Source: Rothia mucilaginosa (lineage in GTDB: Bacteria > Actinomycetota > Actinomycetes > Actinomycetales > Micrococcaceae). Taken from it: a stretch of 64,000 nucleotides of DNA. Numbering within the stretch: position 1 is the stretch's first letter; each line of letters starts with the position of its first letter. The translations under genes were made by a program, and so were the position numbers. Of the stretch, positions 28,162-29,202 are shown in pieces. The stretch is from positions 1-64,000 of the forward strand of contig NZ_CP079822.1 of NCBI RefSeq assembly GCF_019334805.1. The letters are read 5' to 3'. The notes beneath the pieces were generated by a model, which searched no databases, was not told where the DNA came from, and worked only from the letters and a program-made list of their open reading frames with translations.

Positions 28162-28425
28162 GTGGCTAACATTAAGTCTCAGAAGAAGCGTATCCTCACC
28201 AACGAGAAGGCTCGCCTGCGCAACAACATTGTAAAGTCCGAGCTGAAGACCGCGACCCGCAAGGTCAAGGCTGCTGTTGAGGCACAGAACAAGGAAGCAG
28301 CTGTTGAGGCTCTGCGTTTTGTGAACCGTAAGCTGGACAAGGCTGTTTCCAAGGGTGTTCTGCACAAGAAGACCGCTGCAAACAAGAAGTCCGGTCTTGC
28401 TACGCTGGTAAACAAGGCTTTCTAA
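28162..28425 (+). CDS. rpsT: 30S ribosomal protein S20
   Basis: S20 binds 16S rRNA in the 30S body. The 87-residue lysine-rich protein is typical: [40 protein letters not shown], and [12 protein letters not shown] at the end. The start is GTG 28162, the only start that gives the family MANIKSQ N-terminus; the ribosome site (GAAAG) is weak. It is monocistronic, with its own promoter and terminator. Confidence 0.97.
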
Positions 28426-28468
28426 AACTTGCGGGGTACGTGAGTACCTCTCTGGTTTAAGGGCAGAG

Positions 28469-28518
28469 ACCCCCTGTGTTCCCCCTCCTCTAAGGGGAAC
28501 GCAGGGGGTTTCTTTTTC
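28469..28518 (+). terminator. Rho-independent terminator after rpsT
   Basis: ACCCCCTGTGTTCCCC pairs with GGGGAACGCAGGGGGT around CTCCTCTAA, followed by TTCTTTTT. Confidence 0.85.
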
Positions 28519-28532
28519 GTGTATAGTTGGGG

Positions 28533-28705
28533 TTAAGGAGTTAAACGACCCCTCTGAAACCCTGAGCCTCACCTATCGGTGTGGCAATAACGCTCGGGCG
28601 GCCGCGGCTTTATGCTTCGGTCTAGAAGACATCGGGGGCACCACCGGTTAACTCCTTATAACTTGTGTGAAGGGCATCCTGCTAAGTGGCGGGATGCCTT
28701 TTGCT
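28533..28705 (+). ncRNA. Structured RNA of unknown family, copy 1
   Basis: This is a stand-alone transcript unit with no reading frame. TATAGT at 28522-28527 is a likely -10. AAGGAGTTAA (28535-28544) pairs with TTAACTCCTT (28648-28657) as a closing stem. Inside are CCC(T)GAGC/GCTCGGG with a CACC-TATC-GGTG tip, GGCCG/CGGTC, GTCT-AGA-AGAC, and a CCCC/GGGG pairing. The 33 bases from GCGGCCGCGGCTTTATGC to GAAGAC are identical in copy 2. A terminator hairpin (GGCATCC/GGATGCC, 28673-28698) with TTTT ends it. It does not match SRP, tmRNA, RNase P or 6C RNA as I know them; the multibranched form also differs from rod-like 6S RNA. The structure was read by eye. Confidence 0.65.
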
Positions 28706-28921
28706 ATGCCCGTAAGGAACCTAAAACTAAGTGAAACGCCGTTCCTGTCGTAAAGAGAAAAGGTGGCATCTAGCAAAACCTTTTTCAAAATAGTGGGTAA
28801 ATTGTGACTATTTGCTGCTCATGCTGATGACTGGGAAGTGGAGCCCGCAGCCTGCGACCCAATTGAGTAGTAGCAAGCCAGTAATACAAAGACAAATGAC
28901 GAAATAGGAAGATAGATTTTC
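28706..28921. other. AT-richer spacer between the two RNA copies
   Basis: No gene or clear repeat is seen. The AT-rich end near 28900-28921 (GAAGATAGATTTTCGTG) leads into the second RNA promoter. Confidence 0.4.
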
Positions 28922-28934
28922 GTGTATACTTGGG

Positions 28935-29107
28935 CTCAAGGAGTTAGACGATTCCTCTGTAACCCTGAGCCTCGCCTATTGGTGTGGCAATAATGCTTGG
29001 GCGGCCGCGGCTTTATGCTTCGGTCTAGAAGACCGTCGGGGGCGTCACCGGCTAACTCCTCATAACTTGTGTGAAAGGCATCCTGCTAAGTGGCGGGATG
29101 CCTTTTG
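28935..29107 (+). ncRNA. Structured RNA of unknown family, copy 2
   Basis: This is a second copy 402 bases downstream, roughly 85 percent identical, with its own -10 (TATACT, 28925-28930) and terminator (GGCATCC/GGATGCC then TTTT, 29077-29106). The closing stem is GGAGTTAG/CTAACTCC, where copy 1 has GGAGTTAA/TTAACTCC: an A-U pair replaced by G-C. In the second stem GAGC/GCTT replaces GAGC/GCTC, and at its tip GCC/GGT replaces ACC/GGT, both still pairing. Changes that keep pairing argue for a selected RNA fold. The terminator loop (TGCTAAGTGGC) is unchanged. Confidence 0.65.
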
Positions 29108-29174
29108 CTATACCCGCACGCTGTGGTTTTATGGCACAGATTTCGGGGAGGCGCCCGCCCGGTGACGAAACCGC

Positions 29175-29202
29175 TTGCGGGTCGCGCGGGAGCCCGTATA
29201 GT
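29175..29202 (+). promoter_or_regulatory. Promoter of the PAC2 gene
   Basis: TTGCGG (29175-29180), a 16-base spacer and TATAGT (29197-29202) form a good -35/-10 pair 120 bases before the gene. Confidence 0.5.

Follow-up and report, generated by a model that had tools for sequence, protein, structure and literature searches.

In type III toxin-antitoxin systems such as ToxIN, an RNA binds and neutralises a ribonuclease toxin. CdiA-CT toxins, which are paired with CdiI immunity proteins, are delivered by contact-dependent inhibition (CDI), and CDI loci keep orphan immunity genes without a toxin. For the MuF polymorphic toxins of temperate phages, Jamet et al. (2017; PMC5576092) describe a small immunity open reading frame (ORF) directly after the toxin gene. 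Immunity to polymorphic toxins has been described as protein-based. Here, we report on positions 1-64,000 of contig NZ_CP079822.1 of Rothia mucilaginosa (“the window”; genome G000), where two tandem copies of a structured RNA lie downstream of rpsT. Relatives of this RNA adjoin the toxin-encoding ends of phage head protein genes, and we consider it likely that this RNA confers immunity, as an antitoxin, to a polymorphic toxin carried by phages.

The phage loci resemble MuF toxins in having a head protein with a variable C-terminal toxin domain and a small element right after the toxin gene. However, the small element of the MuF toxins is an ORF for an immunity protein, whereas the phage loci have a structured RNA gene in its place, in most cases on the strand opposite the toxin. 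The likeness to type III systems lies in an RNA gene adjoining the toxin gene (seven of seven loci here), and by analogy this RNA would bind a ribonuclease toxin. Type III antitoxins consist of tandem repeats and precede the toxin within a single operon. Here, in contrast, the RNA lies downstream, mostly on the opposite strand and single except in genome G593, and the toxin is part of a phage head protein. The best match of this toxin is CdiA-CT, but absence from a match list carries no weight, and the ToxN/CptN/TenpN-type fold of type III toxins may yet apply. CdiI of the Burkholderia pseudomallei CdiA-CT/CdiI pair is a protein and delivery is by contact, whereas here an RNA and phage delivery would take their places. 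As with orphan CDI immunity, solitary determinants are kept without a toxin, but here the determinant would be an RNA. No RNA antidote to a polymorphic or MuF toxin was found by titles and abstract beginnings, a search with most subscription journals outside its scope. Combining “polymorphic toxin” with “RNA antitoxin” yielded a title on type II toxin-antitoxin systems only, and nothing on prophage noncoding RNA morons or Rothia small RNAs described such an RNA by title or abstract beginning.

The RNA pair and its homologues

The two copies in the window (28525-28710 and 28930-29114) are 90% identical (E 2e-67). Their covariance-model starts, 28527 and 28930, give a spacing of 403 bases, one more than the 402 in a first-pass annotation that had proposed, from the sequence alone, a tandem pair of structured RNAs of unknown family. 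That proposal was borne out. Rfam returned no match at gathering score in the 64 kb window, whether to 6S, tmRNA, SRP, RNase P, 6C or any other family. At a loose threshold, 28400-29200 gave nine matches, every one far below gathering score and none credible, and near the compact homologue described below there was no match at E 1. BLAST of copy 1 against phages and plasmids matched nothing.

Both copies are on the forward strand. Copy 1 (subtype A; 28529..28706 with its terminator) follows a -10-like box, TATAGT (28522..28527, forward strand), and has a closing stem at 28535-28544/28648-28657, an AATAA motif at 28586 and a terminator hairpin at about 28671-28705. Copy 2 (subtype B; 28932..29109 with its terminator) follows TATACT (28925..28930, forward strand), with the closing stem at 28938-28947/29052-29061, AATAA at 28989 and the terminator hairpin at about 29074-29107. 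The similar boxes and near-identical terminators seen at first pass were confirmed; a promoter scan of 28400-29200 found no sigma-70-like -35/-10 pair and recovered no full promoter for either box.

The core of copy 1 folds with z -2.0 (8/200 shuffles as good) and that of copy 2 with z -0.8 (47/200), its minimum-energy fold being unlike that of copy 1. Across six close sequences, RNAalifold gave a two-sided change in only 1 of 54 pairs. The A-U to G-C change reported earlier in the closing stem is real (G-C in four sequences, A-U in two), and the invariant core exists, spanning 34 alignment columns rather than 33 bases. The further claim that the copies contain no reading frame was partly right: ORFs of at least 20 amino acids do occur in long copies (up to 48 amino acids in one G014 copy), but none is common to all. 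Structural support between close copies is modest, and strong support came solely from distant homologues.

These homologues were found in Rothia genomes, in prophages and at more distant actinobacterial loci. A DNA search of 35 Rothia genomes identified the RNA in three (G000, which is the window's own, G013 and G014), two copies apiece; R. mucilaginosa is a mouth bacterium. In G013, a prophage has the gene order head protein, RNA, scaffolding protein and major capsid. Prophages of two other Rothia genomes, G028 and G015, have related head genes, and the same gap contains a compact homologue of ~86 nucleotides on the opposite strand. The compact and long forms share the blocks AATAA, GGGCGRCC and GGTCTAGAAG, and this gapped pattern occurs in 5 of the 35 genomes (reversed control, 0/35). 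In the predicted fold of the compact RNA, a long closing stem carries two hairpins and is followed by a T-run. Five of the six differences between G028 and G015 are in paired columns. A hand alignment of nine sequences, three of them compact and six long, has pairing in 84 of 90 closing-stem cells and double changes in 4 of 10 pairs, so the covariation among homologues that was weak between close copies is clear at this distance.

The compact-form covariance model (R2), run on 395 genomes of the family, detected one further strong copy, in R. aerolata (G002), with no phage head genes adjoining. Its flanks resemble the phage scaffold start and the head-protein end (DNA alignment; tblastn E 0.067 and 0.27). 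The sequence TGTTAAAAT is conserved upstream of the RNA in G028, G015 and G002. G028 has a weak promoter-like site ~24 bases upstream on the RNA strand (one of 3 sites, 0.5 expected), and a G013 copy has a promoter-like TTGAAA-17-TATGCT. Both orientations relative to neighbouring genes, together with the solitary copies, speak against the leader of a single gene. The earlier preference for a free-standing RNA over a riboswitch held, and action in trans is likely.

Several weaker candidates were set aside. Weak matches L126 and L131 (model R1) and L174 (R2) looked on inspection like terminator-type hairpins; weak matches were also recorded at L130 (R1) and in G286 at L173 (R2). A gapped core match in viral contig L161 was judged to be chance: tblastn with six G013 phage proteins matched nothing there, and inspection by eye showed no comparable closing stem. 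The terminator tail TTTTnCTATRCC was dropped as a phage-specific mark: six Rothia genomes each have 1-6 occurrences, and two of these follow an apparent tRNA end.

A host housekeeping small RNA (6S, Ms1 or SRP-like) acquired by phage might be suspected from the two host-chromosome copies with their own -10-like boxes. We regard this as very improbable, given that the RNA is known in only 6 of the 35 Rothia genomes (DNA search, gapped pattern and strong R2 copy combined, R2 having been run on part of the 35), that Rfam has no match and that some copies have phage-like flanks.

A predicted tRNase domain beside the RNA

The head proteins have a VG15/MuF-type N-terminal domain (PF25310, above cut-off in the G013, G593 and G510 proteins) and a C-terminal toxin domain as in MuF/VG15 polymorphic toxins. 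A portal gene lies upstream in G013, G028 and G015, and by annotation in Gordonia phage GMA4. The predicted fold of the C-terminal domain places it in the CdiA-CT tRNase family, with CdiA-CT as best match (PDB 4g6v, CdiA-CT/CdiI of B. pseudomallei). Thus, the domain is probably a CdiA-CT-like, tRNA-cutting toxin as far as structure prediction can tell, although both activity and target are inferred. The model of the full-length head protein is poor (pLDDT 57.9), and comparison of the domain with sequences of solved structures found nothing. Metagenome searches also listed variants of the domain, 101 in one search and 8 in another.

Within Rothia, the domain occurs in 3 of the 35 genomes, and in each of these the RNA lies at the 3' end of the domain gene; G000, G014 and G002 have the RNA without the domain (Fisher p 0.003, shared descent ignored). 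A set of 125 distinct viral contigs that have related head genes (80 + 51, six shared by name) includes two with the domain, both of which have the RNA. The examined stretches of the other 123 contained no domain and no RNA match better than E 0.3 with two models. A core pattern scan of viral contigs found one contig, which is not an independent case because it is identical to the G013 prophage over 13,130 bases.

We also searched with the domain alone. Outside Rothia, 396 genomes of the order gave three matches (G593, G510 and G669, the last partial), and 50,697 phage records gave GMA4 alone, under two accessions, with the domain at the C-terminus of Orf4. The RNA adjoins the toxin gene in all seven loci examined, weakly in G669, and is on the strand opposite the toxin in five and on the same strand in two. 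An opposite-strand hairpin RNA overlaps or abuts the toxin stop codon in G593, G510 and G669 (RNA strand uncertain in the last), whereas in GMA4 the RNA begins ~10 nucleotides past the stop, on the toxin strand. Folding z-scores, each relative to 200 dinucleotide shuffles, were -6.9 for G593 (0/200 as good), -3.1 for its second tandem copy (2/200), -4.3 for G510 (0/200), -4.1 for GMA4 (0/200), -1.3 for G669 (22/200) and -3.0 for the Rothia G028 RNA (1/200), with the ends of the G593, G510 and G669 RNAs picked by eye after folding both strands.

The loop GAAAUAA is present in G028, G015, G002, G510, both G593 copies and GMA4. Its counterpart in the long form is GCAAUAA, and G669 lacks the loop. 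In 1.9 Mb of loci (overlaps counted, GMA4 outside), TTGAAATAACA occurs solely in the G028, G002, G510 and G593 loci. Between the two G593 copies, four closing-stem pairs have changed on both sides. R2 scores G510 and GMA4 weakly and R1 is blank on G593, G510 and G669, so assignment of these loci to a single RNA family relies on the combination of position, shape and loop.

The second G593 copy (L309:1249-1342) follows a repeat of the toxin gene 3' end and is a case of RNA duplication outside Rothia. Just beyond the RNA, tRNA-Tyr genes lie in the G510 phage-like region (L313:3417-3500) and in GMA4 (L315:2031-2112). As a hint, these adjoining genes may point to the toxin's target.

No immunity ORF is common to the gaps. 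None of at least 20 amino acids is present in the compact Rothia regions, and the G669 gap has none of at least 25 amino acids. In related prophages (L177:3001-3520 and L178:251-780), the head protein has another extension, with a weak EndoU match in L177, and the gap has a small open frame that is possibly protein immunity.

Could the RNA instead regulate phage mRNA, as an antisense or cis element for toxin or scaffold expression? Its place between the toxin and scaffold genes of Rothia prophages would suit this role, and in G013 the duplex energy beats most shuffles for the toxin and scaffold starts (6/200 and 3/200 as good; capsid 64, portal 93). Yet the same test in G028 and G015 gives 126-194/200 as good, orientation relative to the toxin varies among phages (five opposite, two same), and solitary copies persist without toxin or scaffold genes. 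We therefore consider regulation unlikely.

Still less probable is a DNA element, such as a hairpin or recombination site, that would serve to swap toxin tips, with the RNA-like appearance secondary. Head-protein extensions do vary between related phages, and the flanks of subtypes A and B are exchanged between G000 and G014. However, all 29 pairs form in G028 and G015 on the stated strand versus 25 and 24 on the other, a comparison favouring the strand on which the structure was predicted. In addition, the compact Rothia and G593 copies end in a terminator-like T-run, and the G013 copy has the promoter-like site mentioned above.

A putative RNA antidote to a phage-delivered toxin

An RNA that itself blocks the toxin is the simplest reading, as the RNA sits where an immunity gene is expected and the gaps have no common immunity ORF. 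The CdiA-CT-like tRNase domain at the C-terminus of the VG15/MuF-type head protein would presumably be injected with the phage DNA, and a lysogen would have to survive toxin injected by phages of the same kind or leaking from its own late genes. The RNA would come from a gene of its own at the toxin 3' end. In five of seven loci this gene is on the strand opposite the toxin, so it could be expressed in the lysogen while the late operon is silent. In its predicted fold, a long closing stem bears a hairpin whose loop contains AAUAA. The RNA would block the tRNase by binding to it, perhaps acting as a tRNA decoy. Prophage decay would then leave the RNA alone as orphan immunity, as may be the case for the two tandem subtypes of the window, the single R. 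aerolata copy and the duplicated copy in G593.

A more specific proposal goes further, and we favour it by a modest degree. In this proposal, phages of several actinobacterial families share a family of structured RNAs that neutralises a CdiA-CT-like tRNase delivered by the virion, bacteria keep subtypes as orphan immunity, and the AAUAA loop mimics part of the target tRNA, perhaps tRNA-Tyr, which is beside toxin and RNA in two of seven loci. Mimicry of the ribosomal GTPase centre or of 6S RNA was set aside, with Rfam as the only tool applied to it.

The observations behind the antidote reading are the position of the RNA, its predicted structure with covariation, its association with the domain, the lack of an immunity ORF common to the gaps and solitary copies that are partly flanked by phage-like sequence. 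Several points weigh against it. Expression, toxin binding and neutralisation are inferred, as is selection on the solitary copies. The match of Pfam CdiA_C to the G013 domain is below cut-off (E 0.029), the G015 domain has none, and Foldseek gave no match to the domain at E 0.001. The genus association ignores shared descent, and the absence of the RNA from the 123 contigs depends on two models that barely see GMA4. In small searches, R2 gave weak scores for G510 (E 0.011) and GMA4 (E 0.079). R1 had no match in G593, G510 or G669, and the z-scores of these three are optimistic given ends chosen by eye. The opposite strand of GMA4 folds too (z -2.2, 7/200). In G669 the toxin match is partial (positions 93-139 of 150), and the RNA has a different core and folds no better than chance. 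The long R. mucilaginosa form is unlike the compact one (inserted hairpins, GCAAUAA, a separate terminator), with unremarkable folding energy, and the likeness of the G002 flanks reaches only E 0.067 and 0.27 by tblastn. Finally, the gaps of G510 and G593 contain unrelated ORFs of 32-57 amino acids, and the 92-nucleotide gap of GMA4 is open in three of its six frames, so these three gaps may encode a small immunity protein.

The RNA might also be a cofactor of the toxin protein, for example in capsid loading or processing. Closeness to the toxin tip of the head protein and a structured core with a conserved loop agree with such a role, but a cofactor has no clear reason to stay without the toxin, and RNA copies away from any toxin occur in four genomes (G000, G014, G013 and G002). 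We judge this improbable, if slightly less so than the DNA element.

If the antidote reading is true, it would link two separate fields, type III toxin-antitoxins and polymorphic toxins, through an RNA that counters a tRNase delivered by phages. It would also account for such toxins that have no immunity ORF and give bacteria a direct reason to retain a phage RNA once the phage itself has gone. The reading is testable with one toxin domain and one RNA of ~90 nucleotides.

Phage-like remnants downstream of rpsT

The gene rpsT (ribosomal protein S20; 28162..28425, forward strand) was recognised as an ORF, and comparison with G013 identifies its last ~20 bases (28405-28425) as a phage attachment site. 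The ~33 kb G013 prophage sits at the rpsT 3' end: homology to the window stops at 28425, the stop codon, and restarts from 28405 beyond the prophage. The rpsT terminator hairpin (28464..28518, forward strand) is immediately 5' of copy 1, and the solitary G013 RNA likewise has a hairpin immediately upstream that resembles this terminator.

Two further features of the window, both on the forward strand, resemble prophage sequence. After copy 1, 28710..28750 resembles the start of a phage scaffolding-protein gene (ribosome-binding site and first codons; local alignment, 1/2000 mononucleotide shuffles as good). Between the copies, 28788..28815 resembles sequence beside the prophage integrase, with the motif GTAAATnGYGACnA at 28797; in G013 this repeat lies next to the integrase end and near the prophage right end. 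Because of this scaffold-start remnant and integrase-side repeat, the window copies are best read as survivors of decayed prophage DNA. In flank tests against the phage copy, the downstream side of copy 1 matched in G000 (1/2000 shuffles as good) and in G014 (8/2000). The other five of seven tests gave nothing: upstream of copy 2, 164/2000 in G000 and 342/2000 in G014; downstream of copy 2, 1688 in G000 and 1666 in G014; and upstream of G000 copy 1, 1846 (each of 2000).

Other DNA occupies this site in relatives. In G027, a close relative without the RNA, the stretch downstream of the rpsT terminator that has the two RNAs in the window is replaced by 0.9 kb of different DNA. The rpsT-PAC2 gap of this genome has a 198-amino-acid ORF with weak matches at most (L120:8587-9180). 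G014 has a 2 kb element at the same rpsT 3' end position. Four small ORFs (228, 134, 119 and 82 amino acids; L119:1423-3794) lie in this element and between the RNA copies; they have no Pfam or PHROG match, and the idea that they are toxin and immunity remnants was dropped for want of family support. The G028 and G015 capsid genes (L133, L135/L137) show in-frame TGA in search matches, and these prophages may be defective. The G014 RNA copies span L119:3221-4377 and those of G000 span 28529-29109; subtypes A and B stand in reverse order in the two genomes while the flanks stay put, which suggests gene conversion or recombination.
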